A stretch of DNA of 64,000 nucleotides from Prosthecobacter algae (lineage in GTDB: Bacteria; Verrucomicrobiota; Verrucomicrobiia; Verrucomicrobiales; Verrucomicrobiaceae), in assembly GCF_039542385.1 (NCBI RefSeq), contig NZ_BAABIA010000005.1:124001-188000 (forward strand), in the 5' to 3' direction. Of the stretch, positions 23,559 to 41,152 are shown in pieces; position 1 is the first letter of the stretch, and every line of letters starts with the position of its first letter. The notes under the pieces are model-generated. The model was not told the origin of the DNA, made no database searches, and was given only the letters and a program-made list of their open reading frames with translations. The position numbers were made by a program, and so were the translations under genes.

Positions 23559-24344
23559 TCACTTCGGCGTCGTCAGCACCTTCAGGCCTTCCGGACTGAA
23601 GTCAGCGTCGGTCAAGGTGACGCCATGTTTGATGCGCGAGCCTTCCATGACGGTACCGCTGCCGCTGGACCCAGCGCGCGTGATGCTGAGACTGGCGGGC
23701 AGGTGGCGGTCGAGATCATCTTTTTCCACGCGGGTGGTCTCCATGCGGACGACGACCTGGCCTGCGGCATTGTACTTTTCCACACGCAGGGGCACACGGC
23801 GTTTGGGGTCAATCCAGCTTTTCACAGAGGCGTAGCTGGAGCGATCCGAGGAGCCGGGTTTGGACTCTAAAATCTGGCAGTTCACGCGGCCCACATCTTC
23901 GGTGCCGACGAGGGTTTGCTGGCTCCAGCCGAAGAAGTTTTCGATCAAGTCCTCATAGGTCAGGTCACTGCCAAAGAGGCCTTCTTTGAGCTGCGCAGCG
24001 GAGAGGGATTTGACGCTGTCAGGCGGGACAAAAAGGGTCCCGCGTGCGGCCTGGCCGCTGGGCTTGCGCAGCAGGACAGACTCACCTTTGCGCTCTTTGG
24101 GGAACAGGATCTGGTACACCAGGTCGGTGCCTGCCTGGGTGTGGCGTTCTTTGGTCTGGATCTGGATGGCCCCGCCGCCATTCACCTCCAGGCGCAGGCG
24201 AACGTAGGCCGTGCCGTCGAGGCGATCGGCATTCAGGCGTGCGGCCAGTTCTGCTGCTGTGGCGGGAGATTCAGCCGCTGTGGCGGGAGCCAGAGCTGCC
24301 CAGCCAAGGGCGAGCATCGCAAAAGAAAGGGGGAACGTCTTCAT
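23559..24344 (-). CDS. LolA-like outer membrane lipoprotein-sorting protein
   Basis: 261 residues from ATG 24344, where a signal peptide starts (MKTFPLSFAMLALGWAALA). The body matches the 'outer membrane lipoprotein-sorting protein' LolA-like fold: YVRLRLEV, LVYQILFPKERKGESVLLRKP, LTYEDLIENFFGWSQ, ILESKPGSSDRSSYASVKSWID. It should carry acylated cargo across the periplasm. Lies 106 bases downstream of the ABC permease gene; together they look like a LolCDE/LolA-type route, here sharing an operon with PKS genes rather than lipoprotein genes. Confidence 0.82.
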   Translation of the reverse strand: MKTFPLSFAMLALGWAALAPATAAESPATAAELAARLNADRLDGTAYVRLRLEVNGGGAIQIQTKERHTQAGTDLVYQILFPKERKGESVLLRKPSGQAARGTLFVPPDSVKSLSAAQLKEGLFGSDLTYEDLIENFFGWSQQTLVGTEDVGRVNCQILESKPGSSDRSSYASVKSWIDPKRRVPLRVEKYNAAGQVVVRMETTRVEKDDLDRHLPASLSITRAGSSGSGTVMEGSRIKHGVTLTDADFSPEGLKVLTTPK

Positions 24345-24450
24345 GGTCAAAGGCATCGTTTCTCGCGGCCATCTTGCACGCGTAACTCCACAGATTGTAT
24401 CGGGGCCTAAGACCGGAAAAAGGAAAATCTGTGGCTGGCCACCCCCCAGC

Positions 24451-25566
24451 TCACCCATTCAGCGCGGCGGCGGGATTCAGGCGGGAGCTGCGCCAGGCGG
24501 GGTAGAGGCCGCTGAGGACGCCCACGATGACGGCGATGGCCACGGCTTTGAGTAAGAGCGAGGGGCTCAGGTCTGGCTCCAGCAGGCCTTTGATGGCGGG
24601 AGCGTTTTGCATAGCCTCCACACCCAGGATGCCGAGAAGGACACCGCCGATCCCGCCGGCGAAACCCAGCAGGGCAGACTCCCACAGCACCATGCGCACG
24701 ATGCGGCTGCGCTTCCAGCCCAGGGCGAGGAGCACGCAGATTTCCTGCTTCCGCTCAAAGACGGTCATGAGCATGGTATTCATCACGCCCAGCACGCCCA
24801 CAAGCACGGCCAGCAGGGAGGTGCCCCAGCTCATGGCGCGGATCATTTTGTAGCCTTGGCTGTTGTTAAAATGTTGGGCCACAGAAACGGCGCGCACTTC
24901 AGGGGCCACCTTGTTGATCTCGGCACACAGGACCTGCAGTTGCTCCTCCGTCATGCCGGGCTGGGCCCGCACGTCCACCACATTGATCTTGCCCTCGCTG
25001 GCCATCAGCGTTTGAAAAACGGGCAGCGCCAGGATGATGGAGCCATCTTCCACCAGGGCACCGCCATTGACGATGCCCACCACGGCTAGCTCGGTGGCCT
25101 CGACTTGCAGGGTATCCCCGACTTTCTTTTTCAGCACTTCGGCGGCGGTTTGCCCCAGGACCACGGCCTGCTCATTCTCATCCTTCGGCAGGCGACCGGA
25201 GGTGACCGTCAGCTTATCCCAGGTGAAGCCACCCCACTCGCGGGCTGAGACCATGATCATATCCGCCTCTTCCACGCTCATGAGTTCCACCATGAGCATG
25301 CAGGTGGCGGAAACTTGCGGCAGTTTGGCAATGCGATCCCGCACCGTGGGGCTGAAGGGCTTGGGCACCATCGCGCCGCCCATGTTGCTGACCACAATGT
25401 CCGTCCCGCGTGCCTTCAGGCCGGTGGCCCAGCTTTTTTCAAAGCCTTCTGAAATGCCCACCAGAGCCACCACAGCGGCGATGCCGATGGAGATGCCCAC
25501 CAGGGTGAGGGCGGTGCGAACGCGGCGGCGTAGTAGGCCACGAACCACGATGGTGAAGAAATTCAT
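24451..25566 (-). CDS. ABC transporter permease, MacB/LolC-FtsX type
   Basis: 371 residues. N-terminal transmembrane helix after MNFFTIVVRGLLRRRVRTALT, a ~200-residue periplasmic MacB_PCD domain, then three C-terminal helices of the FtsX domain ending in YPAWRSSRLNPAAALNG, a near-universal MacB/LolC tail. The family moves substrates by mechanotransmission: macrolides, peptides or lipoproteins. Six bases after its ATPase. Confidence 0.93.
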   Translation of the reverse strand: MNFFTIVVRGLLRRRVRTALTLVGISIGIAAVVALVGISEGFEKSWATGLKARGTDIVVSNMGGAMVPKPFSPTVRDRIAKLPQVSATCMLMVELMSVEEADMIMVSAREWGGFTWDKLTVTSGRLPKDENEQAVVLGQTAAEVLKKKVGDTLQVEATELAVVGIVNGGALVEDGSIILALPVFQTLMASEGKINVVDVRAQPGMTEEQLQVLCAEINKVAPEVRAVSVAQHFNNSQGYKMIRAMSWGTSLLAVLVGVLGVMNTMLMTVFERKQEICVLLALGWKRSRIVRMVLWESALLGFAGGIGGVLLGILGVEAMQNAPAIKGLLEPDLSPSLLLKAVAIAVIVGVLSGLYPAWRSSRLNPAAALNG

Positions 25567-25572
25567 AATTCG

Positions 25573-26301
25573 TTAGGCTTGGGCTGGAGTCACCGCTGGC
25601 AGGGCACCGTCGGAGACCACCTGGCCGTCCTTCATCAAAATCGTGCGGGTGGCCAGACGGGCGATGCCGAGATCATGCGTCACCATCACCAGCGTCATCT
25701 TTTGCTCTTCATGCAGCTTCACCAACAGGTCGAGGACCTGGGCGGCATTGTGGCTGTCTAGATTGCCTGTCGGTTCATCCGCCAGCAGCACGGAGGGGCG
25801 ATTCGCCAAGCTGCGGGCGATGGCCACGCGCTGGCGTTCACCACCGGAAAGTTTGCCGGGAAAATGGTGGATGCGATGGCCCAGGCCTACCTGCTCCAGC
25901 AGCTCCACCGCGCGGTCGCGCCGTTCCTTGAGGCTGAGTTTTCCCTCAAACATGGGGATCTGTACATTCTCCACCGCCGTGTAGGTAGGCAGCAGGTGAA
26001 AGGCCTGGAAGATGAAGCCGATCTCATGCGCACGATAGGCCGCCGGGTCTGCCACGTCTGGCAAAGATAGACCGCGATAATTCAGCGTGCCAGCCGCCGG
26101 ACGATCCAGCGCGCCGAGCATTTGCAGGAGGGTGCTTTTGCCACAGCCGCTGGGGCCCGTGATGGCCACAAACTCACCGGCTTTGACCTGGAAACTGACG
26201 CCACGCAGGGCCTGCACTTGGCCGCCGTCGTAGTCCTTTTTCAGGCCGATGGCTTCGTAAACCAAAGACGCAGCGCTGGAGGACGGGGGAGGGGCACTCA
26301 T
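25573..26301 (-). CDS. ABC transporter ATP-binding protein, LolD/MacB type
   Basis: 242 residues from ATG 26301; the longer reading overlaps the desaturase gene and adds no conserved sequence. Walker A GPSGCGKST, LSGGERQRVAIARSL, Walker B VLLADEPTGNLDS with the MacB/LolD-typical GNLD, and VTHDLG. Drives the adjacent permease. Starts 32 bases after the desaturase stop. Confidence 0.95.
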   Translation of the reverse strand: MSAPPPSSSAASLVYEAIGLKKDYDGGQVQALRGVSFQVKAGEFVAITGPSGCGKSTLLQMLGALDRPAAGTLNYRGLSLPDVADPAAYRAHEIGFIFQAFHLLPTYTAVENVQIPMFEGKLSLKERRDRAVELLEQVGLGHRIHHFPGKLSGGERQRVAIARSLANRPSVLLADEPTGNLDSHNAAQVLDLLVKLHEEQKMTLVMVTHDLGIARLATRTILMKDGQVVSDGALPAVTPAQA

Positions 26302-26333
26302 CAGGTGGAAAGGGAAAAACAACCGTGCCCCAC

Positions 26334-27350
26334 TCAACCCGGCATGGCCATGGAAGAAGGGGCTTCTGGAGACTTCGGCTGGCTGCGCCATTGTGGCCCT
26401 ACTTTAGGGTCGGCAAGGTCACGCAGCAGATCCAGCACGGCCAGGCGATAGCTAGAGTAGGGAGCCGTTTCCTCCTCCGTGCGGGGCGCGAGCTCGGCGG
26501 CACGCGCGGGCAGTTCCCAGTGGTGCATGCCCAGGTGGCGATGGTGCAGGCCATGAAAGGGCTCATGCAAAAGCGTGTAGGCCAGCACTTTGCCGGTCCA
26601 GCCTTCATCCACGATGCTCCGCGTGGCCCCAGTGGCGCTGGTGCCGCGCAGGCCCACGTGCTCCACGTACTTGCGCCAGCTTTGCAGATTGGCCGCCATC
26701 ATCGCAGGCAGCAGATACAGGCACAGATAATATTTCCACAGGCCAAACCACGCGACGGTGGCCACCACCACGGACCAAAAGACCACGATGCCGATGATCT
26801 CCTGCCAGATGCGTTTGCGCACGCGTTTGTTCCGGATGGGGGAATTCGCCCGGAAGAAGGTGCGCAGAAACAGGTAGGGCGTGAACCACAGGCCAAAGGT
26901 CAGCTCTAAAAAGGCGGCCATGCGCCGCAGCCAGCGCGGGGTCTGCGGGTCCACAAAGGGCCACAGCTCCTCATCCCGCTCCGTGGCCAGGTGCATGTGA
27001 TGCGTCTGGTGAGCGGCACGGTATAAACTAAAGCTGGTTAGGCTGAGGATGCCGATGAAGACGCCGTCGAATTCATTGAACTTCCGGTTCTTCCGAAGCA
27101 GGCCGTGCGAGGCCTCATGAAAGCCGATGAGCACCCCGTGCATGAAATGCCCCGCCAGCAGGACCAGCGGGACCACCAGCCACCAGTTCTCATGATACAG
27201 CGCGGCCATGAGGCCGGCCTGGATAAAGACGAGCACAAAAACCAGGATCTGAAAGGCTGAGCGACTGATCCAGTGCGGTTCATGGGGATCGGCCCCGTCA
27301 CCTTTCACGGTGAGGTCCAGGGGATCAGAAGAAGAGGCGGCGGCATTCAT
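26334..27350 (-). CDS. Membrane fatty acid desaturase
   Basis: 338 residues from ATG 27350. Di-iron integral-membrane desaturase/hydroxylase family: three histidine boxes HEASH (~78-82), HQTHH (~114-118) and HEPFHGLHH (~262-270), with hydrophobic helices between. Introduces double bonds or hydroxyls into acyl chains. Six bases after the condensation-protein gene in the PKS operon, so its substrate is likely the PKS acyl chain or its lipid acceptor (inference). Whether it desaturates, hydroxylates or acts on a carotenoid cannot be decided by eye. Confidence 0.9.
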   Translation of the reverse strand: MNAAASSSDPLDLTVKGDGADPHEPHWISRSAFQILVFVLVFIQAGLMAALYHENWWLVVPLVLLAGHFMHGVLIGFHEASHGLLRKNRKFNEFDGVFIGILSLTSFSLYRAAHQTHHMHLATERDEELWPFVDPQTPRWLRRMAAFLELTFGLWFTPYLFLRTFFRANSPIRNKRVRKRIWQEIIGIVVFWSVVVATVAWFGLWKYYLCLYLLPAMMAANLQSWRKYVEHVGLRGTSATGATRSIVDEGWTGKVLAYTLLHEPFHGLHHRHLGMHHWELPARAAELAPRTEEETAPYSSYRLAVLDLLRDLADPKVGPQWRSQPKSPEAPSSMAMPG

Positions 27351-27355
27351 CACAT

Positions 27356-28705
27356 TCAGGCCAGGAGATCGGCGAGGGGAGTATGGGGTGAGAGGGATAC
27401 GTTGGCCAGCACGCGTTGGTAGCGGCGGTTCAGTTCCTGCGTGTCTTCAGGAGTGAAAAGGGAGGGCCTGTAGAGCCACACCACTTCCAGTTCGTCCCCA
27501 TCCTCCGTCACTTCACAGGCCAGGTCAAACCGGGCGGTGCCGGTGGACCGCATGCGCAGTTTAAATGACAAACTCGGCAGGGTGATGTCTGGGATGGGGT
27601 GGTTTTGCAGGGCAAAACGCACGTCGTAGATCGGGTTGTGCCCGGCCTCCGCTTGCACGCCCAGCGCTTTCGCAAGTTCGGCAAAGGGTATGGCTTCCGC
27701 GAAGCAGTCCATGCTGGCATCTTGCACGCGCTTCACCGCCGTGGCAAAGGTCTGCGTGAGGTCCACCTGCCCGCGGAGGGGCACCACACCGGCAAAGTAG
27801 CCCATGGTTTCCTTCGCGGCCTGTTTGGTACGATTCGCCACGGGGCTGCCGACGATGATGTCCGTCTTCCCGGTCCACTGCGCCAGGGTGACCTGGAACG
27901 CGGCTAACAAAGTATTGAACAGCGTCGCGCCCGTGGTCTTTGCCAGAGCGCGGATGTTGCGGGTGGCCTCCGGGGAGAGGCTGGAGGCCCAGTAGGTGAG
28001 CTTTCCAGCACGCGCCGTTTCATCCGCCGGGCGTTCCCACAGGCGGGGAATCTCCGCCAGATGCTTGCGCCAGAAAGCGGCGCGTGTTTCCAGCTCTGAG
28101 GCTTGCCAAGAAGCGCGTTCTGCCGCCGCCCAGGCGGTGTAACTCATCTCCACCGGCGGCAGGGGACCCCCGCCAGGAAGCTTGTTTTGCAGATAAGCCG
28201 CCGCCAGTTCCTGAACGAAGACGCCCAGGGTCCAGCCATCGGCAATGGCATGATGGATGGCAAACACCAGCACCAGATCTCCCGGCCCACGTTGCAGCAT
28301 CTCCACTCGGTAGAGAGGCCCGCGCAGCATGTCGAAAGGTCGGGTAAAAATCTCCCGCATCACGGCTTCCAAAGCCTCTCCGTGAGCTTGCTCCGCGGGC
28401 AGTTCACGGTAATCCAGCACCACGGTGCCAGTGCGGCGGATCATCTGAAACGGCTGCTCCTTTCCGGGGAGGAAAGACAGCCGCAGTACTTCCTGCCGCT
28501 CCACCACCAGCTTCAGCGCCGCATCGCAGTCCGCCTGCGTGATGTTGCCCCGCACCTCGATGAAAGCGCAGATGTGGTTGCCGATGTCACCGGGGGCGAC
28601 GGGCGAATTTTCCCACAGCTCACGCTGGGGCAGGCTCAGGGGCTGGAGACGGATTTCACCGCTCTCCAGCCACTGTTTGAGGTTGGCACGAAGGTCTAGA
28701 GACAT
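27356..28705 (-). CDS. Free-standing condensation-domain acyltransferase
   Basis: 449 residues, a complete NRPS-type condensation fold and nothing else. Starts with the C-domain pattern LPLSQRELWE-like (PLSLPQRELW) and has the catalytic HHAIADG at 151-157 (HHxxxDG). The DFGW-region equivalent is degenerate. No adenylation or carrier domain. Such discrete enzymes (PapA5, wax-ester/DAT types) take an acyl chain from a carrier protein and transfer it to an alcohol or amine, releasing a PKS product. Seventeen bases downstream of the PKS, which lacks a thioesterase, so this is the probable off-loading step. Confidence 0.9.
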   Translation of the reverse strand: MSLDLRANLKQWLESGEIRLQPLSLPQRELWENSPVAPGDIGNHICAFIEVRGNITQADCDAALKLVVERQEVLRLSFLPGKEQPFQMIRRTGTVVLDYRELPAEQAHGEALEAVMREIFTRPFDMLRGPLYRVEMLQRGPGDLVLVFAIHHAIADGWTLGVFVQELAAAYLQNKLPGGGPLPPVEMSYTAWAAAERASWQASELETRAAFWRKHLAEIPRLWERPADETARAGKLTYWASSLSPEATRNIRALAKTTGATLFNTLLAAFQVTLAQWTGKTDIIVGSPVANRTKQAAKETMGYFAGVVPLRGQVDLTQTFATAVKRVQDASMDCFAEAIPFAELAKALGVQAEAGHNPIYDVRFALQNHPIPDITLPSLSFKLRMRSTGTARFDLACEVTEDGDELEVVWLYRPSLFTPEDTQELNRRYQRVLANVSLSPHTPLADLLA

Positions 28706-28722
28706 GTCAGGATGACATCGGC

Positions 28723-31700
28723 TTAGGCACCGGCTTTGCGTGCGGCTTTGGCAGCCGGGGCCGGGATTTCCTCTGCCGCCGTCACATCATCCAGCAGGCT
28801 GGCAATGTCGTCATCCGAGATGGCATCCAGATCCACTTCATCCACGGAGGTGGGGGCCTCCACGACCGCAGGGGCCGCTGGCGCTTTCGCCGCCGCACCG
28901 GAGGCACCGCCCAAATGCTCGCCAATGAGCGCGGCCAACTGGCCGATGGTGCGGGCACGCATGAGGCTGGTCGGTGGCAGAGCCACGCCGATGGTGCTTT
29001 CGATGAGGTTTTCGATCTCGACCCCCATGAGGGAATCCAGACCCAAATCCGTCAGCGGCTGGTCATCGCGTAGGCTGTCTGGCTTCACGCGCAGGACGGA
29101 GCCGACAACTTCTCTCAAAGCCTGGGCAATGATGCCCGCGCGATCTTCGGCGGAGGCGGCGTCAATCTTCGCACGCCAATCCCCGGTCATGCCGCCAGAC
29201 TCCGCACTTTCCACGCCCGAGGCGAAGATGTGCTCCAGCAAAGGATTTTCCTGGAGACCGCGGAAGGACTGCCGCCACTTGGCCCAATCCACCCGCAGTG
29301 CGGCCACCTGGGCTGAGCCTGCGGTGAGGAAGGTTTCCAGCAAGGAAACGACCTCGCCCGGAGTGATGGCGGAGGTGCCCTGGCGTGCCAGGAACTCGGC
29401 CACCTTCTCATTGCGCGCCACGTAGCCTTCGCCACCCAGCACACCCCAGTTCACCGCCAGAGCGGGCAGGCCCAGAGCCCGGCGATGATGCGCCAGGGAA
29501 TCCAGGAAGGCATTGGCACCGGAGTAGTTACTCTGGGCCGGATTGCCAAACACGCTGGAGATGGAGGAGAACATGACGAAGCAGTCCAGATTCAGATCCA
29601 GCGTGCCTTCATGCAGCTTCCAGGCACCGAGCGCCTTGGGGGCCAAAACGGTGCGCATGCGCTCGCGGTTCAGCACGCCCATCGGCGCATCGTCAATGAC
29701 CATGGCCAGGTGGAACACACCTTTCAGCGGCACCTTGGCAGCCTCGATCTCACGCAGCATCCGTGTAATGTCCTCCGGCTCGCCGGCATCGCCTTTCAGG
29801 ATCTGGATCTTCACACCCTGACTTTCCATCTGGGTGACAAAGGCCTTCGCCTCAGGCGTGGATGCACCACTGCGGCTGGCCAGCGCCAAATGACGCGCGC
29901 CACAGTCCACCAACCACTGCGACAGCACGCGGCCAAAGCCACCAAAGCCACCGGTGATGAGGTAAGTGCCCTCGGCCTTCACTTCAAATCCAGGCGCTGG
30001 GGCTTCACCCCGGCGATTCACAAACGCATCCGTGAAGGTCACCACCACTTTGCCTGTGTGCTTGCCAGCCGCCATGAGGCGGAAGGCGGCATCCACGCGG
30101 CTAGCAGGGTAGGCGCGGAAGGGCAGCGGGCGCAGGGCCCCCTGTTCCACCAGCTCCACCAGCTCACCTAACAAACGACGTGTCAGTTCTTCATCCCCAC
30201 CAAAGACCGCATCCATAGCCACGACGTGGAAGGAGGCGTTCTTGCGCAGGTGCCAGAGTGGGATGCGAGAGTTTTGGTAAATGTCGCGTTTGCCGATCTC
30301 AATGAAACGACCGAACTCGGACAAGCAGGAAAGGCCCATGGGGATGGCCTCGGCCGCGAGGGCATTCAGCACCACATCCACGCCTTTACGATTCGTCAGG
30401 TCCATGACCGCATCGGCAAAGTCGGCGCGGCGGGAGTCAATGACATGCTTCACACCCAGCGTTTGCAGCAGGGCGCGCTTGGAGGCGCTGCCTGCCGTGG
30501 CGATGACTTCACAACCCAGATGCAGAGCGATCTGGATGGCCGACATGCCCACGCCACCTGCACCGGCGTGGACCAGGATGGTCTCGCCTTTGCGCATGCG
30601 GGCCACATTGTTCAGCGCGTGCCAGGAGGTCATGAAGACCACCGGCAGCGTGGCTGCACCCTCAAAGGACAGATGATCTGGAATGCGCACCACATCCCCA
30701 CCACGGGCCAGGGTGTGCGTGGCCAGGCCATACACGGCCAAACCAAAAACGCGATCACCCACGGCGACGTGCTTGATGTCCTTGCCGATGGCGAGAACGA
30801 TCCCGCCGACTTCATCGCCAAAGATGCGAGCGTCCGGTGTTTCCGCCGGATACAGCGCCAGCGCTTTGAGCACGTCGCGGAAGTTCATGCCTGCGGCTTT
30901 CACTTCGATGAGCACTTCTCCATCCCCACACACCGGCAGGGTGAAGGGGGTGAGCTTCAGCGTGTCCAGCATGCCGCGTTCACGCGACTCCAGGCGCAGC
31001 GGGATCTTGGGATCCAGCACGGTTTCCTTCACCGGCAGACCGCGCTTGATGCGCTGCACATAACGAGCTTCACCACGGATGGCGATCTCGCGCTCCCCGT
31101 GTTCCTGCAGCAGCTCACGCCACAGCAGGGCGGCATCTTCAGCGGAGGCTTCCGGGGGAAGATCCAGGCCACGGCAGGCAAAGTTCGGGTGCTCACTGAC
31201 GATGACGCGGAAGACACCGATGGACGGTGCCTGCGCCACATTGGTCAGCCCCATGTGCTGGCCTGCGGGCTGGGCCCCTCGGGTGATGAGGTCCATCCGC
31301 AGCTTGACGGCCGGGGTGGTGTTTTCAATCGCCTGCGTCAGGTGCAGCAGGGCATCAATGCCCATCAGCGCCGCATCGCCTTCGCCTTTGCCCGCGGGTT
31401 CATCCAGCGTCCACAGGTAGGTCATACGCTCGGGCGGGGTATCGTCCGCATAGGAGGTGACCAGGGTCATCCAGTCTTCCGGCGTATCGGCACGCAGGGT
31501 GTAGTCATCGCCTTTGGCTGCATAGGCAGCACCGCGGCGGGCCGTGCGCACACGGACACCAGCGGCTTTGAGCTGCGCCACCAGTTGATCTCCCAGACCA
31601 CCCTTGTCAGCGAACACCAGCCAAGAGGCCTCAGGTGCCAATGGCAAAGTTTGTTCGGCATCCACCTGCGTCACCGCTTGCGTCTCCGTCCAGGCTTTGC

Positions 31701-34700
31701 GGCCCAAAAGACCGATCTGCCCCTCTCCCCCACGCGGACCGTGCAGACCCGGGATGGAGGTGGTTTCGGCAAAGCCTGCCGTTTTCATCGCGGCTTCCCA
31801 CTCAGGGCGCTGCATCAGCGGTTGATCCGGACGCAGATCACGATCTGTCAGATGCCACCAGCCGCTGGTGAGGCCGAAGACGCTTTCCGTCCAGAGCTGC
31901 GGCGTGGCCACATCCATGAACACCAGGCTACCGCCCTGTTTCAGCACCTCATGCAGGTAACCCAGCGTGGCGCGCACATCCGCCACGGCATGGATCACGT
32001 TCGTGCCAATGACGAGGTCATAGGTGCCCGCTTCGTAGCCTTGCGCGGCGGGCGGTTGTTCCAGGTTAAACACTTTGAACTCCACCTCAGGGAAGGCCGC
32101 CAGCTTTTGTCCCGCGACGGAGAAGAACCCGGCGGACACGTCGGTAAACGTGTAGGAATGCAGGCCGCGTGGCAGCAGCGGCAGCAGGTAGGCACTGAGG
32201 CCCCCGGTACCGGCACCCACTTCCAGGATGCGTAGGCCGCGCCCTTCCGGCAGGTTTTTCGCCGCCTCATTCACTGCGCTGGTGATGGCCGCCATCCAGT
32301 GACTGGAGAGCAAACCGTCGCCGTAGAATTGATCCAGCAGATCGCTGTTAGCGCCGCCGAAGAGCACCTGCACGGCATCTTTCTCACCGCGTAGGATCGG
32401 ACCCAATTCCGCACACGTGATGTTCACCAGCATGCCTTCCGGCAAGTGGCCGGGGTTTTGATCCACGAAGGTTTTCAGCACTTCCGTGGCGTTGTCCGCA
32501 GCGGCATCGAAGGTCGCCGTCGGCACATGGCCTGCGCCCTTCACAGCCAGCAGGCCGCGCTTGGTCAGGTCATTCACCAGGTGGTGATACACGCGCTGCA
32601 TCGGCGCAGCCACTTTCAGGCTGTCCACGGTCCACACTTCGTCGGCCTTTAGGCCAGCGGCCATCTGGCGCAGACCGCGAGCGATCTGGGCGGCGGCGAG
32701 GTCATCCTCAGCGGCCATGGTGGCCTCCAGGTTCGCCTTGCCACGCACGGCGATGACTTCTTCCAGCGTCTTCTGAGCCGCCTCTTTCAGGTCGGCCAAA
32801 GGCACCGGAGTCAGGGTAGCGGGTGTGCCCACCGAGGCGGTGCGTTCCCAGTCCACATGATACAGCAGATCGCGTGTGCCACTGGTGCCTGCGCGGCGGG
32901 CGGCGGCCATGCTGACGGCGCGGAAACCATCCACCAACACGCAAGGCGCGCCGGATTCATCGTAGAGGCCGATGTTGCCCTCGATGAACTCGTCATTGAA
33001 CTGCACCACTTTCGCCTGCACCCGCGTCACGGCGCCTGGAGAGCGCAGATACAGGATGCGGCCAAAGCGCACGGGCAGCTTCATCTTCGCCTTGCGATCT
33101 TCCACCGTTTTAGACCCGGCAGAGAAGGTATGCAGCGCGCCATCCAGAAGGACGGGGTGCAGGCAATACTCACCCGCACGATGGGCGATGTTTTCAGACA
33201 GCGCCACGCGGCCTGCGGCCTTGCCACCGGCTGCCCACAGCTCACGCACGGCGCGGAATTCATCGCCATAACGCAGGCCCAGGTCACTCATGTGCTGGTA
33301 GAAATCCGTCACGTCCAGGGACGTCAGGCCCTCCGTGGCACCTTCCCAGGTCGTGGCATTGAACAGAGATTCCGTACGCTCACCGCGCATGGAGCCGACC
33401 ACGTGGACGGACCATGCCGCCCCGGTGTCGAATTTGCTCTGGATGGTGAAGGTGCGCTCGTTCGGCTCATAGGTCACTTCCAGCACCACGCCGGAAGGGT
33501 TTTCTGTGAGGATCAGCGGCTTGCGGATTTCAAAGTCTTCCACAGCGAAGGGGCGACCTTCAAAGTATTGCGCCCCCGCTTCGAGGATGAGTTCCACAAA
33601 ACCGGCTCCAGGGAAGATGACGTGGCTTTCCACCTTGTGATCTTTCAGGAAGGCCATGTGGCGATTGTCCAGACGCGCGATCCACGTCGGCGTAGCGCGC
33701 GGCAGGCGGATGTCCAGCAGGCCTTTGCCCCCAGCACCAAGACGGCCTTCGCGCCAATCTGGCGATTCATTCCACCAGCGGGCCTTGTCCCACGCATAGG
33801 TCGGCAGGGCCAGTTGATGACGGGAAGGCGTCATGCCTTTGAAGTCCAGATCCACACAGGCGCGGTGCAGTTCCAGAGCGGCTTCCAGCATGGATTCATG
33901 CTCACGATCCCGGCGTGCCGAAGCCACCACCGGGGCCTTTTGATTGCGCGCACCCAGGCACTCCTGGATGGACAGGGACAGGGCTGGGTGAGCGGTGATT
34001 TCCAGCCACACATCCACGCCGAAGTCTGCCAGCGCATTCACCGCTGGGGCGAACATCACTGCCTGCCGGATGCCACGGCCCCAGTGGCCTGCATCGCACT
34101 CTTTGCCGCTGATGCGGTCACCGGTGACGGTGCTGAAAAACGGCACCGTTTCTTCACGCGGTTCCAGCTCGGTCAGTGCCGCCACGAGTTCATCGGCCGC
34201 AGGCTGCATGTAGGCATGGTGGAAGGGGTGATCCACCCGCACAAAACGGGCAAACACACTGTCCGCCTCCAGCTCCACACGAATCTTTTCCAGCGACTCC
34301 TTCGGCCCAGATAGGGTCAAAGAACGCGGGCCATTGAAAGCGGCGATGCTGACCACGCGGTCATGCCGCGAGATGACGGCCAGGGCGGATTCCTCATCCA
34401 GACCCACAGCCAGCATGGTGCCTGCGCCACGAGCGCATTCATTCATGAAACGCGCACGCAGGGCGATGACCTTCGCGCCTTCTTCCAGGCTCAGCACGCC
34501 CGCCACGCAGGCAGCGGCGATCTCACCCACGCTGTGGCCCACGATGGCCGCAGGCTGCACGCCCCAGGATTTCCACAGTTCCGAAAGGGACACCTGCATG
34601 GCAAAGATGGCCGGCTGGGCGATCTCCGTCATGCTCATCTTCGAGTCCTTTTCATCGCGGCCTAACTCCTCCAGGAGGGAGAATTTGGCCCACGGCTTCA

Positions 34701-36432
34701 GCGCCGCAGCGCAGGCCTCCATCGACTTGCGGAAGACCGGCTCATTCTTCATGAGTTCACGGCCCATGCCCCACCACTGAGGGCCCTGGCCACTCATGAC
34801 AAAGCCTACCCGCGCAGCGGTCTCGCGCCGTGGGGAGAACCCACTGCGCACGTTTGGCACTTCCGAGCCGACGCCAAAGGCATTCAGCGTGGCGATGGCC
34901 TCATGCGCCGTCTTCGCCACCATCGTCAGGCGATGCTGGTGATGATTGCGCCGCGCTCCCAGGGTGTAGCAGAGGTCCGGCAGCACCGGGGAGGTGCCGT
35001 TGGATTTCTCATGATCTTCCAGCCAGGTAGAAAGGCGATACGCCGTGGCCTTCAGCGCCTCTTCCGAGCGGGCCGAAAGCACCAGGGGCCAAGGGCGATC
35101 AAAGGCCGAGGCGGGCAGCTTGACATGCGGTTTGTTAGGCGCTTCCGCCAGGATGACGTGGGAGTTGGCCCCGCCAAAGCCGAAGGAATTCACCCCAGCC
35201 ATGCGCACTTCGTAGCTTTCCGGGAAGTCTTCCATCTCCACCGGGATGCGCAGTTTCAGCGCCTTGAAATCAATGTGCGGATTCGGCGTTTTGAAGTGCA
35301 GGCTCGGCGGGATCTTGCCGTGCTTCAGCACCAGCAGCGCCTTGACCAGACCGGCCACGCCAGCCGCTGTTTCCATGTGCCCCAGGTTCGTTTTAACGGA
35401 ACCCATGGCGAGGGGGGAGCCTTCGTCGCGGTCTTCACAAAGAGCTTCAGAAAGCGCCGTGGCCTCGATGGGATCTCCCACCGCCGTGCCCGTGCCGTGC
35501 GCCTCGATGTAGCCGATCTCGCTTGGGCTGATGCCCGCGTCTTTGCACGCATCCTTCACCAGCCGGGCCTGGGCCTCGGGGCTGGGCAGGGAGATGCCAT
35601 TCGTGTGGCCGTCCTGGTTGGTGGACGTACCCAGGATGACGCCCTGGATCGGGTCGCCATCGGCAATGGCCTGGGAAAGCTTTTTCATCATCACCATGCC
35701 TGCGCCTTCCGCACGCACGAAGCCATTGGCATCTGCATCGAAGGCTTTGCACATGCCGTCTGGAGACAGCATGGAGGCCTGGGAGAAACCGATGAACCCA
35801 CCCGGGGTGATCATCACCGTCACGCCACCGGCCAGGGCGGTGTGCCCGCGCCCGGTCCAGATGTATTCGCAGGCTGCATGCACCGCTGTGAGGGCGGAGG
35901 AGCAGGCCGTATCCATGGCCACGCTGGGGCCCGTGAGATTCAGCGAGTAGGAGATGCGGTTCGCCGCGATGGAGTGTGCGCTGCCCGTGGAGGAGTGCGC
36001 GCCGATGCCTGCGGAGTCAAACGGAGTGCCCTGGATGACCTGATAGTCTGTGTGGGAAACACCCACATAGACGCCAATGTCCGTGCCTTTTTCCAGATCC
36101 AGCACGATGCCAGCATCTTCAATCGCTTCCCAGGCGGTCTCTAAGACCAGTCGCTGCTGCGGGTCCACATACGGGGCCTCGCGCGGGGAGATGCCGAAAA
36201 ACTGCGGATCATACTGATCAATAGAATCCAAAAAGCCGCCGCGTTTGGCAATGGACTTCCCGGCTAGGCCTGGCTCAGCATCGTAAAAACGTTCGATGTT
36301 CCAGCGATCTGGGGGCACTTCGCACACCGCATCACGCCCCTCCGCCAGTAATTTCCAAAAAGCTTCGACGTCGTTAATTCCGCCGGGAAAGCGGCAGCCG
36401 ATACCAATGATGGCGATTCCTTCTTTATGCAT
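28723..36432 (-). CDS. Highly reducing type I polyketide synthase, KS-AT-DH-MT-ER-KR-ACP
   Basis: 2569 residues from ATG 36432 (a TTG nine bases upstream would add three); single module. KS (~5-430): DTACSS with Cys177, EAHGTGT His312, NLGHME His352. AT (~540-850): GHSVG Ser634; HPFH at 735-738 indicates malonyl-CoA. DH (~925-1170): H932 with HxxxSxxxxP (Ser in place of the usual Gly) and Asp1097. C-methyltransferase (~1290-1570): ILEVGAGTGG. A non-catalytic KR-like subdomain (~1575-1795). ER (~1815-2135): HAGAGGVGMSA. KR (~2155-2370): TGGFGGFG, Ser, Tyr2303, Asn2307. ACP: GLDSLMG Ser2467. The C-terminus carries an acidic tail (DLDAISDDDIASLLDD) recalling PKS/NRPS docking tails. All catalytic residues look intact, predicting a saturated, C-methylated chain, made iteratively because only one module is present. 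No thioesterase or loading domain. Confidence 0.97.
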   Translation of the reverse strand: MHKEGIAIIGIGCRFPGGINDVEAFWKLLAEGRDAVCEVPPDRWNIERFYDAEPGLAGKSIAKRGGFLDSIDQYDPQFFGISPREAPYVDPQQRLVLETAWEAIEDAGIVLDLEKGTDIGVYVGVSHTDYQVIQGTPFDSAGIGAHSSTGSAHSIAANRISYSLNLTGPSVAMDTACSSALTAVHAACEYIWTGRGHTALAGGVTVMITPGGFIGFSQASMLSPDGMCKAFDADANGFVRAEGAGMVMMKKLSQAIADGDPIQGVILGTSTNQDGHTNGISLPSPEAQARLVKDACKDAGISPSEIGYIEAHGTGTAVGDPIEATALSEALCEDRDEGSPLAMGSVKTNLGHMETAAGVAGLVKALLVLKHGKIPPSLHFKTPNPHIDFKALKLRIPVEMEDFPESYEVRMAGVNSFGFGGANSHVILAEAPNKPHVKLPASAFDRPWPLVLSARSEEALKATAYRLSTWLEDHEKSNGTSPVLPDLCYTLGARRNHHQHRLTMVAKTAHEAIATLNAFGVGSEVPNVRSGFSPRRETAARVGFVMSGQGPQWWGMGRELMKNEPVFRKSMEACAAALKPWAKFSLLEELGRDEKDSKMSMTEIAQPAIFAMQVSLSELWKSWGVQPAAIVGHSVGEIAAACVAGVLSLEEGAKVIALRARFMNECARGAGTMLAVGLDEESALAVISRHDRVVSIAAFNGPRSLTLSGPKESLEKIRVELEADSVFARFVRVDHPFHHAYMQPAADELVAALTELEPREETVPFFSTVTGDRISGKECDAGHWGRGIRQAVMFAPAVNALADFGVDVWLEITAHPALSLSIQECLGARNQKAPVVASARRDREHESMLEAALELHRACVDLDFKGMTPSRHQLALPTYAWDKARWWNESPDWREGRLGAGGKGLLDIRLPRATPTWIARLDNRHMAFLKDHKVESHVIFPGAGFVELILEAGAQYFEGRPFAVEDFEIRKPLILTENPSGVVLEVTYEPNERTFTIQSKFDTGAAWSVHVVGSMRGERTESLFNATTWEGATEGLTSLDVTDFYQHMSDLGLRYGDEFRAVRELWAAGGKAAGRVALSENIAHRAGEYCLHPVLLDGALHTFSAGSKTVEDRKAKMKLPVRFGRILYLRSPGAVTRVQAKVVQFNDEFIEGNIGLYDESGAPCVLVDGFRAVSMAAARRAGTSGTRDLLYHVDWERTASVGTPATLTPVPLADLKEAAQKTLEEVIAVRGKANLEATMAAEDDLAAAQIARGLRQMAAGLKADEVWTVDSLKVAAPMQRVYHHLVNDLTKRGLLAVKGAGHVPTATFDAAADNATEVLKTFVDQNPGHLPEGMLVNITCAELGPILRGEKDAVQVLFGGANSDLLDQFYGDGLLSSHWMAAITSAVNEAAKNLPEGRGLRILEVGAGTGGLSAYLLPLLPRGLHSYTFTDVSAGFFSVAGQKLAAFPEVEFKVFNLEQPPAAQGYEAGTYDLVIGTNVIHAVADVRATLGYLHEVLKQGGSLVFMDVATPQLWTESVFGLTSGWWHLTDRDLRPDQPLMQRPEWEAAMKTAGFAETTSIPGLHGPRGGEGQIGLLGRKAWTETQAVTQVDAEQTLPLAPEASWLVFADKGGLGDQLVAQLKAAGVRVRTARRGAAYAAKGDDYTLRADTPEDWMTLVTSYADDTPPERMTYLWTLDEPAGKGEGDAALMGIDALLHLTQAIENTTPAVKLRMDLITRGAQPAGQHMGLTNVAQAPSIGVFRVIVSEHPNFACRGLDLPPEASAEDAALLWRELLQEHGEREIAIRGEARYVQRIKRGLPVKETVLDPKIPLRLESRERGMLDTLKLTPFTLPVCGDGEVLIEVKAAGMNFRDVLKALALYPAETPDARIFGDEVGGIVLAIGKDIKHVAVGDRVFGLAVYGLATHTLARGGDVVRIPDHLSFEGAATLPVVFMTSWHALNNVARMRKGETILVHAGAGGVGMSAIQIALHLGCEVIATAGSASKRALLQTLGVKHVIDSRRADFADAVMDLTNRKGVDVVLNALAAEAIPMGLSCLSEFGRFIEIGKRDIYQNSRIPLWHLRKNASFHVVAMDAVFGGDEELTRRLLGELVELVEQGALRPLPFRAYPASRVDAAFRLMAAGKHTGKVVVTFTDAFVNRRGEAPAPGFEVKAEGTYLITGGFGGFGRVLSQWLVDCGARHLALASRSGASTPEAKAFVTQMESQGVKIQILKGDAGEPEDITRMLREIEAAKVPLKGVFHLAMVIDDAPMGVLNRERMRTVLAPKALGAWKLHEGTLDLNLDCFVMFSSISSVFGNPAQSNYSGANAFLDSLAHHRRALGLPALAVNWGVLGGEGYVARNEKVAEFLARQGTSAITPGEVVSLLETFLTAGSAQVAALRVDWAKWRQSFRGLQENPLLEHIFASGVESAESGGMTGDWRAKIDAASAEDRAGIIAQALREVVGSVLRVKPDSLRDDQPLTDLGLDSLMGVEIENLIESTIGVALPPTSLMRARTIGQLAALIGEHLGGASGAAAKAPAAPAVVEAPTSVDEVDLDAISDDDIASLLDDVTAAEEIPAPAAKAARKAGA

Positions 36433-36730
36433 GCAGTTCAAGCGTAGGGGGAGTTGGGGAGACGAGTTTTTTTGCCAAAACTGACGCCGCCCGTAATTCG
36501 AATCGTGCGAAGTGCCTGCTGTGCGTCCCTGTTTTTTCAGAGATTGTTAAAATCAGCAGTTCACCGGGGGTCATTTGGGCAAAACAGTATTTTTTGCAGT
36601 GGCCCATAGAGGGCATACACCGCTAATTTAATGACTATCGCTCAATTTTGGCGATAAGAAACGCATAAAACGTCTCAGCAACGATGGTTCTGTGAACAAA
36701 ACCCTTTAACTTGAGGACTGACTTAACAAG
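36433..36730. promoter_or_regulatory. Divergent intergenic region between the PKS and asnB-like genes
   Basis: 298 bases with no gene; AT-richer than its flanks (for example the stretch near 36586-36600 with six Ts). It must hold the promoters of both transcripts. I cannot pick -35/-10 boxes with confidence, and no obvious operator palindrome was seen. Confidence 0.5.
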
Positions 36731-38716
36731 ATGTGTGGCATTGCAGGCGTGATGGATCTGGTCGGGCGGCGCAGTGTGCCGCACGAAATCATCGAACGAA
36801 TGTCCCTGGCCCTTTATCACCGGGGGCCCGATGAAGAAGGCTTCTTTATCCGCCCTGGACTGGCCATGGCCTCGCGCCGCCTCAGCATCGTTGGCCTAGC
36901 TGATGGTCAGCAGCCCATGCACAACGAGGACAAAAATGTCTCCGTCGTTTTTAATGGCGAGCTTTTCGACCACGTGGAAAAGCGCGTGGAGCTGGCTGCC
37001 CGGGGCCACACCCTGGTCACCCACTGCGATACCGAGATCATCCCCCACATGTGGGAAGAGAGTGCCGAGGGCATGTTCGAGCGCCTTCGCGGCCAGTTCG
37101 CCATCGCCCTGTGGGATGAGCGGCAGCAGAAACTGACCTTGGGGCGAGATCGTTTCGGCATCAGCCCACTCTATTGGACTCGCCAGGGCGACTGGCTGCT
37201 CTTTGCCTCCGAGATCAAGAGCCTGCTCGCCTCTGGCATGGTCCCCGCCATCCCGGACCGGCGCGGCATTGACCACGTCTTCACCTTTTCCGCGCTGCCC
37301 GGTCCCATCACTTGCTTTGAGGGCATCCAGATGCTGCCCCCGGCGCATTTCCTAGAGGTGCTGCCCGGTCACAGCCACGGCAGCCCCAGCATCCGCGAGC
37401 GCCGCTACTGGGACATGGACTTCCCCGATGCCGGCCAGGAAAACCCCGAGACGAATGCGAAGACCCTGGTGGATGAGTTTGAACACGTCATGCTCGATGC
37501 CGTGGGCAAACGCCTGCGCGCGGATGTGCCCGTGGGCTCTTACCTCTCTGGTGGTGTGGACTCCAGCATGATCCTGGCTCTGGCCTGTCACCTGCGCGGC
37601 AAGTCCATCTCCACCTACACCGTACGGGTGAATGACCCGAAGCTGGACGAACTGGATGCCGCCAGCATGGTGGCCAAATTCATCGGCGCACCACCTCCCG
37701 TTGTGCAGGAGTTTACTCACGAGGACGCGATCTCCACGTATCCCAAACTCATCGCGGCCGCGGAAGCCCCGGTCATTGACACCTCCTGCGCCTCCCTTTT
37801 GCAACTGGCCCAAAAAGTCCACGAATGTGGTCAAAAAGTGGTACTCACCGGCGAAGGTGCAGACGAGTGGCTCGTCGGTTACCCCTGGTACAAAGCCGCG
37901 AAGATCATCGGTTTTCTCGATGCCATCCCCGGTCTGCGCATCAGTGATAAAGCTCGCCGCGCCTTCCTGAGATTCAGCGACGTGCCTCAATATCCTCCGA
38001 GCTTCCGTGCCCGCACCGAGGCCAACGTTGGCGGCCCGAATGCCTGGATTGATAGCTACGGCCTGCTGGGCCTAGCAAAGCTGCGCTTTTACTCCGACTC
38101 CATGCACACCGTGCGGGAATCCACCGATCCCTGGTCCACCCTCGGTATGAACCTGGACCGCGCCAAAAAATGGCACCCGCTGAATCGTGGCATCTGGGTC
38201 GCTGGTCGCGTCACCCTGGCCGGGCATCTTCTCCAGGCCAAGGGCGACCGCGTGGCCATGCACTCCTCTGTGGAAGTGCGCTACCCCTTCCTGGATGAGG
38301 CCGTCTTTGACTTTTGCGCCAAGCTGCATCCCGACTGGAAGCTGCGTGGCTTTCGCGACAAGCACCTCCTTCGTCTCCTGGCCGAACGCTGGCTGCCACC
38401 GTCCATTTACAAACGTGGCAAGGTCATCTTCCGCGCTCCGCTGGACAGCTTCCACCTCGAGCCCGAGCCGCCCTACATCCGCCAGCTCCTCAGTGAGGAT
38501 TCGCTCAAACGCACGGGCTACTTCGATGCAGCCACAGTCCAACACTGGCGCAAAACGTACAGTACTCTGCGAGCGACCTCCCTGCCCCGCCTTTCCATTG
38601 AGATGGGCCTTGCTGCGGTTGTTGCCACCCAGCTCTGGCATCACCAGTACATTGATGGCTCCCTCTGCGATCTACCTTCCCAAGCCCGCACAGGTCCTTT
38701 GGTTACCATCCCGTAA
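36731..38716 (+). CDS. asnB: Asparagine synthetase (glutamine-hydrolysing)-like amidotransferase
   Basis: 661 residues. Class II glutamine amidotransferase domain starts MCGIAGVMD with nucleophile Cys2; conserved FNGEL and RDRFGISPLYW follow. The synthetase domain (~245-600) has the PP-loop YLSGGVDSSM, GEGADEWLVGY and EVRYPFLDEAVFDF. Makes an amide from a carboxylate with ATP and glutamine. It may be the cell's asparagine synthetase or, given its place divergent from the PKS, amidate a pathway intermediate. C-terminus (~60 residues) is longer than minimal AsnB. Followed by an intrinsic terminator. Confidence 0.9.
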   Translation: MCGIAGVMDLVGRRSVPHEIIERMSLALYHRGPDEEGFFIRPGLAMASRRLSIVGLADGQQPMHNEDKNVSVVFNGELFDHVEKRVELAARGHTLVTHCDTEIIPHMWEESAEGMFERLRGQFAIALWDERQQKLTLGRDRFGISPLYWTRQGDWLLFASEIKSLLASGMVPAIPDRRGIDHVFTFSALPGPITCFEGIQMLPPAHFLEVLPGHSHGSPSIRERRYWDMDFPDAGQENPETNAKTLVDEFEHVMLDAVGKRLRADVPVGSYLSGGVDSSMILALACHLRGKSISTYTVRVNDPKLDELDAASMVAKFIGAPPPVVQEFTHEDAISTYPKLIAAAEAPVIDTSCASLLQLAQKVHECGQKVVLTGEGADEWLVGYPWYKAAKIIGFLDAIPGLRISDKARRAFLRFSDVPQYPPSFRARTEANVGGPNAWIDSYGLLGLAKLRFYSDSMHTVRESTDPWSTLGMNLDRAKKWHPLNRGIWVAGRVTLAGHLLQAKGDRVAMHSSVEVRYPFLDEAVFDFCAKLHPDWKLRGFRDKHLLRLLAERWLPPSIYKRGKVIFRAPLDSFHLEPEPPYIRQLLSEDSLKRTGYFDAATVQHWRKTYSTLRATSLPRLSIEMGLAAVVATQLWHHQYIDGSLCDLPSQARTGPLVTIP

Positions 38717-38824: not shown

Positions 38825-39598
38825 TTAAAGGCTCGCAAGCAAAGACCTACCAACCGACTTGGCCTCTTCGTCGTCCTTTTCCACGCTCGGCATCTTGAGA
38901 CCTTTGGCGAGGTATTTGCGCGCTTCGCCCTTATTGCCCATCTGGGCGTGGGTGCGGCCTAACTCAATGTAGTGAATGAGGCGACGAGGATTGAGGGCGA
39001 TGGCTTTTTCCAGACAGGTCACGGCCTCGGTGGTACTTGCCTCGGGCAGCTCTTCATAAACCAGGGCGGCCAGGGTGCGCTTGATGCCGCTGATGTCGGC
39101 CACATTGCGATGCCAGCGACCAATGATGTGCCAAGCGAGATCGTTGCGGGGATTGAGCTGGATGGCTTTTTCCGCTCCTTGTTTGATGAGTTTGGAGCAG
39201 CGCACTTGCTCGCCGGAGTCCTGGAGCGGCAGCATTTTCCCGTAGCTGATGGCGGGGGAAAGTTGGGCATCGGAGTTCTTCGGGGCCAGAGCGGCGGCCC
39301 GCTGACCATAACCCAGGGCGACTTTGCCGAGTTTGAGCTTTTCCGTTTTAGAAGCGGTGTCCGCCATAAGGTGGCGATACTGCCGGGCAATGCGCACGAG
39401 CACGTCAGCATTTTGGGGATCGAGCTTTTCAGCCTGGAGGTAGTAGATCAGAGCCTGGTTGGCATCCAGCTTCAGGTCATAGACCTCGCCTTGTTTCACC
39501 AAGTCCTGCACGGACTGTGCCTGAACTGAGCCTGCAAGCAAAATGCCCGATGCGCAAATCGCACGGACGCCGAACCAAAAGGATGACCAATTTTTCAT
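38825..39598 (-). CDS. Secreted TPR protein resembling the RMDN (regulator of microtubule dynamics) family
   Basis: 257 residues, signal peptide MKNWSSFWFGVRAICASGILLAGSVQA. TPR-like helices throughout; the segment ALQLNPRNDLAWHIIGRWHR-like (EKAIQLNPRNDLAWHIIGRW), then the hydrophobic linker and LPEAST, followed by CLEKAIALNPRRLIHYIELGRTH resembles the RMDN1-3 TPR domain known from animals and some bacteria. Family function in bacteria is unknown; the eukaryotic members bind organelle membranes and microtubules. Start overlaps the amidase stop by four bases. Confidence 0.75.
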   Translation of the reverse strand: MKNWSSFWFGVRAICASGILLAGSVQAQSVQDLVKQGEVYDLKLDANQALIYYLQAEKLDPQNADVLVRIARQYRHLMADTASKTEKLKLGKVALGYGQRAAALAPKNSDAQLSPAISYGKMLPLQDSGEQVRCSKLIKQGAEKAIQLNPRNDLAWHIIGRWHRNVADISGIKRTLAALVYEELPEASTTEAVTCLEKAIALNPRRLIHYIELGRTHAQMGNKGEARKYLAKGLKMPSVEKDDEEAKSVGRSLLASL

Positions 39599-40884: not shown

Positions 40885-41152
40885 AGGGAGAGTGAAACAG
40901 GGGAGTGAGGGATAAGCCAGCGAAATTCAAAGACCGACCCACTAGAAACGTGCCAGATCGTCGGCAGTCCGCAGATACATGGAGATCATTTCGGGGAGCT
41001 ATTCGCGCCTGCGGCGGAGGATGGATGGCAGAGAATGCGAAATGTTAAAACGCACTTTTTGTTACGCACAAGAAGTGACCGGATGGCGAATAGACAGTGC
41101 GGGCGGTGATACTGCCTGCCCCAAAAACCAAACTCCTAACTGTTTCTGCATC

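Follow-up and report, generated by a model that had tools for sequence, protein, structure and literature searches.

A 64,000-nucleotide stretch of the Prosthecobacter algae genome (contig NZ_BAABIA010000005.1, positions 124,001 to 188,000; hereafter the window) contains a locus in which a one-module polyketide synthase (PKS) is followed by a stand-alone condensation enzyme (CON), a desaturase-type oxygenase (DES), an ATP-binding cassette (ABC) transporter (LOLD and PERM) and a LolA-like carrier (LOLA), with an asparagine-synthetase-like gene (ASN) facing away from them. That the locus is a conserved, co-inherited unit is near certain. We give a slight preference to the reading that a polyketide lipid is synthesised here and delivered to the outer membrane via a dedicated Lol-like route. 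How non-phospholipid lipids get to the Gram-negative outer membrane is largely an open question, and in this case the ATPase, permease and carrier adjoin, and are co-inherited with, the enzymes presumed to make their cargo. The locus suggests that a phylum whose chemistry is little known has envelope lipids of a class as yet unexplored, and a motif in the PKS tail predicts how a stand-alone condensation enzyme locates its PKS.

Organization of the locus

Pfam and NCBIfam searches bear out the seven genes of the original prediction, in both position and family. The tight minus-strand packing described there also agrees with coordinates refined to in-frame ATG starts, with gaps of 17, 5, 32, 6 and 106 bases from PKS to LOLA, and the divergent asparagine-synthetase-like gene lies 298 bases from PKS on the opposite strand. 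The extent of the locus had been drawn too small, overlooking a TPR protein (R1) and a lipoprotein-type amidase (R2) in the same neighbourhood, whose genes overlap by 4 bases. The features, in window coordinates, are:

23559-24344, minus strand: LOLA, LolA-like periplasmic carrier, 261 amino acids, signal peptide by eye (PF17131, E 1.3e-24)
24451-25566, minus strand: PERM, MacB/LolC-type ABC permease, 371 amino acids (PF02687 and PF12704)
25573-26301, minus strand: LOLD, LolD-type ABC ATPase, 242 amino acids (PF00005; best NCBIfam model LolD)
26334-27350, minus strand: DES, membrane fatty-acid-desaturase-type oxygenase with three His boxes (PF00487, E 2.8e-33)
27356-28705, minus strand: CON, stand-alone condensation enzyme, 449 amino acids, HHAIADGW (PF00668, E 1.3e-70)
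28723-36432, minus strand: one-module PKS, KS-AT-DH-MT-ER-KR-ACP, with a C-terminal acidic tail motif (Pfam and motifs)
36433-36730, no strand: intergenic region between the divergent PKS operon and ASN, presumed regulatory (from the coordinates)
36731-38716, plus strand: ASN, AsnB-type glutamine-dependent amidotransferase with MCGI start and SGGVDS (TIGR01536)
38825-39598, minus strand: R1, TPR protein with a signal-peptide-like N-terminus (TPR families)
39595-40884, minus strand: R2, amidase-signature enzyme with a lipoprotein-type N-terminus (PF01425, E 1.8e-65)
40979-41839, plus strand: R3, two-repeat protein, possible accessory and weakest member (homologues in relatives' loci)

A consensus scan of 36433-36730 found no sigma-70-like site, and a promoter and terminator scan of the locus gave no signal above shuffles. 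Throughout the 6.12 Mb host genome, the sole full-length PKS match is PKS itself and the sole PF00668 match is CON.

Conservation and co-inheritance

In a scan of named genomes for CON, the best 80 of 591 stretches gave 79 loci, 51 at 47% identity or above, all Verrucomicrobia by title, and 28 at 30-34%, spread over many phyla. Among the matches listed, CON orthologues (47-98% identity) bear Verrucomicrobial titles only; taken at face value, these titles include Spartobacteria, Chthoniobacterales and Opitutus, and some belong to strains in culture, namely Verrucomicrobium sp. BvORR106, Verrucomicrobium sp. BvORR034 and Brevifollis gellanilyticus NBRC 108608. An even draw over the phylum gave five positives among 387 genomes, all from the window's family; two relatives (G012, G005) bear the same genus label as the window.

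The order of the genes around CON recurs. Where the contig reaches, the 37 loci from related genomes have PKS upstream in 37/37 and, on the other side of CON, DES in 36/37, LOLD in 35/36, PERM in 33/34 and LOLA in 28/31; the corresponding counts for the 51 named loci (among the matches listed) are 47/49, 43/47, 39/42, 37/42 and 31/36. These two sets overlap and comprise 68 distinct CON sequences, 48 with sufficient flank, and in 41 of the 48 all five partners lie beside CON on the same strand. The original prediction would have suffered had PKS loci commonly lacked the other genes; just seven of the 48 distinct loci are without transporter and carrier (L038/L084, L065/L108, L067, L072, L114, L094 and L095, the first three having no LOLA nearby), and in several the parts lie elsewhere. 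A permease of 56-58% identity is found on a separate contig in the genomes of L088, L094 and L079, and in G117 a LOLA homologue sits across PKS, on its other side. Genera g2 and g3 have the order DES-R3-LOLA-LOLD-PERM. Upstream of PKS, 19 flanks contain the R1 TPR gene in 16 cases and the R2 amidase in 15. Three genomes (G008, G015 and G031) carry two PKS-condensation copies each, one of which (L041, in G031) has no adjacent desaturase or transporter.

Co-occurrence was assessed in 142 related genomes, for which the hypergeometric figures ignore kinship. A PF00668-like match at E 1e-20 occurs in 76 of them and a discrete CON of at least 49% identity in 37; the other PF00668-like matches (~23-30% identity) are mostly within long frames of non-ribosomal peptide synthetases (NRPSs). 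Of the 37 genomes with PKS at 62% identity or above, 36 are CON-positive, and the match in the other, G109, is a fragment; in G011 the PKS end alone is found, at a contig edge. PERM at 57% or above occurs in 38: all 37 CON-positive genomes and one of the 105 others (G044), where LOLA, PERM, LOLD and a partial DES run into the contig end. ASN at 68% or above is confined to CON-positive genomes (24/24), as is R2 (25/25; away from the cluster in G019 and G041). The co-occurrence of the two is almost perfect, with both in 22 genomes, while G050 and G060 have no amidase and G011, G021 and G048 no complete ASN (in G021 and G048, pieces at contig ends). ASN homologues of 47-48% identity exist in three CON-negative genomes (G076, G091, G094). 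The asnB gene was rightly described as divergent; it is not a mere neighbour, as it co-occurs with the cluster even from another contig (G050, G060). A housekeeping asparagine synthetase was considered and rejected, the orthologues of at least 68% being restricted to cluster-bearing genomes. This pattern defines a core of PKS, CON and transporter, with AsnB, the amidase and the TPR protein as linked accessories.

The locus genes are under purifying selection: in 26 of 28 comparisons with four relatives, the ratio of non-synonymous to synonymous substitution rates (dN/dS) lies at 0.016-0.275, and in the other two dS is saturated. Because dN/dS is low and the gene order recurrent, the locus is more than a chance arrangement.

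The polyketide synthase and its acidic tail

Numbered on the 2572-residue TTG open reading frame, the PKS domains found by Pfam are KS 7-481, AT 547-860, DH 913-1181, MT 1386-1558, ER 1839-2134, KR 2158-2335 and ACP 2440-2506. In the window protein, the motifs seem intact (KS TACSS, HGTGT and NLGH; AT GHSVG; MT VGAGTG; ER GAGGVG; KR GGFGGFG; ACP GLDSL). The usual DH motif is HxxxGxxxxP; here it reads HxxxSxxxxP, with Ser for Gly. Pfam and a motif check revealed no release domain after the ACP, only a linker and a tail.

After the ACP linker, the PKS C-termini carry an acidic motif like VDLDALSDEEIDRLLGD. The corresponding pattern, composed after the tails had been seen, fits 64 of 65 distinct C-termini (the exception, L039, is one letter off) and has no match in the 183,326 remaining residues of the same PKSs. 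The recurrence of this tail after the carrier domain makes it a likely docking signal.

By sequence score against the PDB, which is only a rough guide as the chains are of unequal length, the best match of PKS is mycocerosic acid synthase (1011 bits), followed by DEBS modules (~800) and LovB (677). The Pks2 model of NCBIfam scores 1191.5 bits, below its cut-off of 2400, and the MT domain is present. Verrucomicrobial relatives of ~40% identity share the one-module KS-AT-DH-MT-ER-KR-ACP order, and two of them, L172 (2547-11360) and L177 (2097-10985), end in the reductase domain NAD_binding_4, while L174 (3322-15381) runs on into C-A-T and so resembles fungal PKS-NRPS hybrids. The window PKS and these relatives are one family with three predicted off-loading modes.

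The condensation enzyme

The HHxxxDG motif occurs in 66 of 68 distinct CON orthologues, the others being one sequence with QHAIADGW and one fragment; the catalytic His and the DG are kept in 67 of 68, the last being the fragment. The original prediction likened CON to mycobacterial PapA acyltransferases. The likeness appears to be one of function only: 19 of 19 members match PF00668 alone in Pfam, and the window CON matches NRPS models in NCBIfam (the presence of a PapA model in the libraries was unchecked). The NRPS C domain of TycC scores 165 bits against 45 for the condensation domain of LovB, and the solved structures closest to CON are NRPS C domains that form amides. The scan of the locus genes showed no adenylation or carrier partner (for the genome as a whole, the search covered PF00668 only). 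Because its nearest solved relatives form amides and no A-PCP partner appears in the scanned locus, an amine acceptor is likelier than an alcohol, and the acceptor of CON is probably an amine.

Ahead of the C domain, CON has a kept stretch of ~20 residues, RARLKQWLxSGExRL, in which L13, G16 and L20 are invariant in 19 aligned proteins. Its mean net charge is +1.8, thus weakly basic (84 sequences, duplicates included). On a simple reading, the PKS tail and the CON N-terminus may be a docking pair.

The transport genes

The best NCBIfam model of LOLD is LolD, at 240.1 bits (cut-off 307.75), and PERM scores 64.2 bits on the LolC/LolE equivalog (cut-off 362.45), both below threshold. PERM has four transmembrane-like segments (at 16, 244, 297 and 332) flanking a periplasmic domain; 34 of 35 relatives' loci likewise encode a permease of 371 residues, and in the remaining one it is cut. 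DrrABC is an ABC-2 type transporter; the Pfam matches of PERM are FtsX and MacB_PCD only. PERM and its ATPase are encoded by separate genes and not fused as in the MacAB type, and no membrane-fusion (MacA-like) or TolC-type gene was found among the locus genes scanned.

LOLA scores above the PF17131 cut-off and is a LolA-fold carrier by family. Its AlphaFold model, with a mean predicted local distance difference test (pLDDT) of 91.4, matches 4z48, 3bk5, 9tp6 (P. gingivalis LolA3) and 3buu with Z 22-27 over 217-229 residues. These top matches are large members of the LolA superfamily; classical LolA and LolB reach Z ~10-14, LolA itself ~10-12. LppX is not in the 50 fold rows displayed, which excludes nothing. 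A Lol-like role is preferred over MacB export because the LolD-type ATPase is separate, neither a fusion protein nor TolC occurs among the scanned genes, and a LolA-like carrier is present.

Paralogous LolD/permease sets, mostly with LolA, occur at 43-58% identity without a PKS in L168 (8330-10967), L169, L170 and L171, and such PKS-free sets indicate that this type of transporter serves other uses in the family. Paralogues of PERM were set aside as a clue to cargo: at 41-48% identity they are found in cluster-bearing and cluster-free genomes, adjoining an M3-like peptidase, a GNAT/acyltransferase or PEPCK.

Desaturase and amide chemistry

The His-box patterns of DES are present in 57 of 57 distinct orthologues; a comparison with the PDB gave no meaningful match. 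ASN reaches 401 bits on TIGR01536 (cut-off 267) and 384.3 bits on the XrtA/PEP-CTERM amidotransferase model TIGR03108, below the cut-off of 816.9. All 32 distinct orthologues have the glutaminase Cys2, and 30 have SGGxDS, the other two being fragments of 105 and 49 amino acids. The nearest solved protein by sequence is the hydroxyamidotransferase 7ylz, which we take to be TsnB9. The host genome also encodes an ASN paralogue of 35% identity.

PDB matches of the R2 amidase include GatA, fatty acid amide hydrolase and colibactin ClbL. A lipobox-like Cys occurs in 18 of the 18 orthologues printed, which suggests that R2 probably acts outside the cytoplasm. R3 matches no family above cut-off; in some relatives its homologues are found in the interval from DES to LOLA/LOLD. 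In a number of g1 genomes, the gene for a lipoprotein-like alpha/beta-hydrolase of ~530 amino acids is inserted between DES and LOLD (L044:11624-13231, L047, L048, L061).

Proposed pathway and alternatives

In the pathway that we propose, PKS, acting iteratively or extending a fatty-acyl starter, would build a reduced chain from malonyl-CoA, with methyl branches derived from S-adenosylmethionine (SAM). CON would dock on the acidic tail and move the chain from ACP to a small soluble acceptor. DES could then desaturate or hydroxylate the product, and in most lineages ASN would add an amide nitrogen to a carboxylate. Families, folds and co-inheritance suggest that LOLD with a PERM homodimer would extract the lipid from the inner membrane, and that LOLA would receive it from them and cross the periplasm. 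At the outer membrane, the lipoprotein amidase R2 and the secreted TPR protein R1 may finish or remodel the lipid, joined in some species by the lipoprotein alpha/beta-hydrolase. The original proposal of an envelope (outer-membrane or cell-surface) lipid is retained as an inference, because PKS is accompanied from genome to genome by a Lol-type ABC transporter and a LolA-like carrier.

Several points weigh against this pathway. Core-bearing lineages without ASN and R2 make both accessory. DES is absent from L041, L088, L094, L095 and L113, the L114 genome has permease paralogues of 41-42% only, the L072 genome has none, and L116 shows no PKS within 10 kb upstream. The six core proteins show correlated pairwise distances over 41 complete loci (Spearman 0.47-0.75; p 0.001 for the four pairs permuted), but without a housekeeping-gene control. 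For docking, the tail pattern is after the fact, and the N-terminus of the window CON has a net charge of 0. The CON of G028 (L047:8905-10204) is split over two frames near residue 340, by a frameshift or an assembly error. By profile, PERM is closest to MacB (8e-30), then to YtrF-type and LolC/LolE proteins (LolC 7e-16), and the fold of its AlphaFold model (pLDDT 82.9; Z 19-25 to HrtB, LolE, LolC and MacB) does not discriminate between Lol, MacB and HrtB. Finally, the locus yielded no LolB-like receptor.

The MacB likeness of PERM lends itself to a different reading, in which the product is a diffusible N-acyl amide or similar compound, exported by a MacB-like permease and merely chaperoned through the periplasm by the LolA-like protein. 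Stand-alone condensation enzymes and amidases are indeed known from secreted-metabolite pathways, ClbL among them. However, the locus genes scanned include nothing MacA-like or TolC-like, whereas a carrier of the LolA superfamily is retained, as is a lipoprotein amidase, and we consider this reading unlikely, if still worth keeping in mind. Similarly, ASN might provide an amide-bearing starter unit to PKS instead of amidating a finished product. OxyD-type enzymes supply such starter units, and the divergent position of ASN, its intact glutaminase and synthetase motifs, its co-occurrence and its proximity to the hydroxyamidotransferase 7ylz would all suit this role. Given that core clusters without ASN retain a PKS of equal domain length, a starter function seems rather improbable.

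Two further alternatives concern the transporter. LOLD, PERM and LOLA could carry the locus lipoproteins (amidase and alpha/beta-hydrolase), with the polyketide staying in the inner membrane or handled otherwise; LolD is the best NCBIfam model of the ATPase, both enzymes resemble lipoproteins, and in PMC11885536 the same choice is left open for flexirubin LolA2/LolB2. Since lineages that yielded no such amidase (g4, g6 and g11, for example) retain the transporter as well, the probability of this is low. That the transporter has nothing to do with PKS-CON beyond lying next to it is strongly disfavoured and hardly credible: the permease and PKS-CON do lie on different contigs in L088 and L094, but co-occurrence persists regardless (37/37 against 1/105). 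Delivery of a polyketide lipid to the outer membrane is the reading that we slightly prefer.

Comparison with known systems

The mycobacterial route to phthiocerol dimycocerosate (PDIM) comprises Mas, PapA5, DrrABC, LppX and MmpL7. Both systems combine a PKS, a stand-alone acyltransferase, an ABC transporter and a carrier of LolA-fold type, and the window PKS has its best PDB sequence match in Mas. However, the window PKS has an MT domain in place of methylmalonyl-CoA use, an NRPS-C-like enzyme stands in the place of PapA, the transporter is of MacB/Lol type rather than DrrABC, and a PF17131 carrier stands in the place of LppX. No MmpL was seen, and AsnB, amidase and desaturase are additions. 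With PKS, transporter and carrier assigned to other families, the relation is one of analogy, not of membership. Whether the locus is a Gram-negative PDIM counterpart made from different protein families (methyl-branched chains, a tail-docked CON, a free acceptor and a lipid-dedicated Lol-type ABC transporter with LolA-fold carrier) is a tentative idea, about which we are marginally more doubtful than convinced. According to PMC4183827, DrrABC and LppX are required for PDIM to arrive at the surface, and the periplasmic acyltransferase Chp2 remodels a related lipid. By analogy, the extra alpha/beta-hydrolase might remodel the lipid as Chp2 does.

Among Gram-negative bacteria, the closest lead comes from the flexirubin loci of Bacteroidota with their LolA2/LolB2. 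PMC11885536 describes a LolA-like protein in a locus for a polyketide-type pigment that presumably resides in the outer membrane and, if confirmed, the first pathway specialisation of LolA/LolB-like proteins. Unlike these loci, the window has no LolB-like partner that could be found, and has its own LolD-type ATPase and permease, a one-module PKS and CON. LolCDE-LolA sorting likewise combines an ATPase, an FtsX-type permease and a LolA-fold carrier, but with LolC and LolE where the window has a single permease gene; the window proteins score under the LolD and LolC/E cut-offs, and their transporter is restricted to PKS-bearing genomes.

LovB-type highly reducing PKSs, the fungal parallel of the original prediction, share the domain order and a C-terminal condensation step. 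The parallel is otherwise weak, as CON is a separate protein and both PKS and CON score closer to bacterial relatives; a fungal origin of PKS was set aside because the PDB scores, rough as they are, favour bacterial proteins. Within the phylum, PMC10308959 reports uncharacterised monomodular Verrucomicrobia PKSs, polycyclic tetramate macrolactam-like KS-AT-DH-KR-ACP-C-A-PCP-TE hybrids in a clade without a MIBiG match; they too are one-module, but the domain set of the window PKS differs. Like ASN, TsnB9 and FzmA are asparagine-synthetase-like enzymes of natural-product pathways that act on a pathway carboxylate, TsnB9 on a trichostatin intermediate according to PMC6133997. A search of the open-access literature, which is limited evidence, returned no description of a gene set of this composition.

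Neighbouring genes in the window

Downstream of LOLA, the genes for NIF3 and MPG were considered as members and are taken to be neighbours, being retained in G042 only among the relatives scanned. A 591-residue protein with squalene-hopene-cyclase-like domains is encoded at 19040-20815, and its adjacency is not kept in the loci scanned with it. The 429-residue protein at 42168-43457, which matches nothing in Pfam or NCBIfam at E 0.01, contains several hydrophobic stretches by eye and adjoins the amidase in G042 (L150) too.

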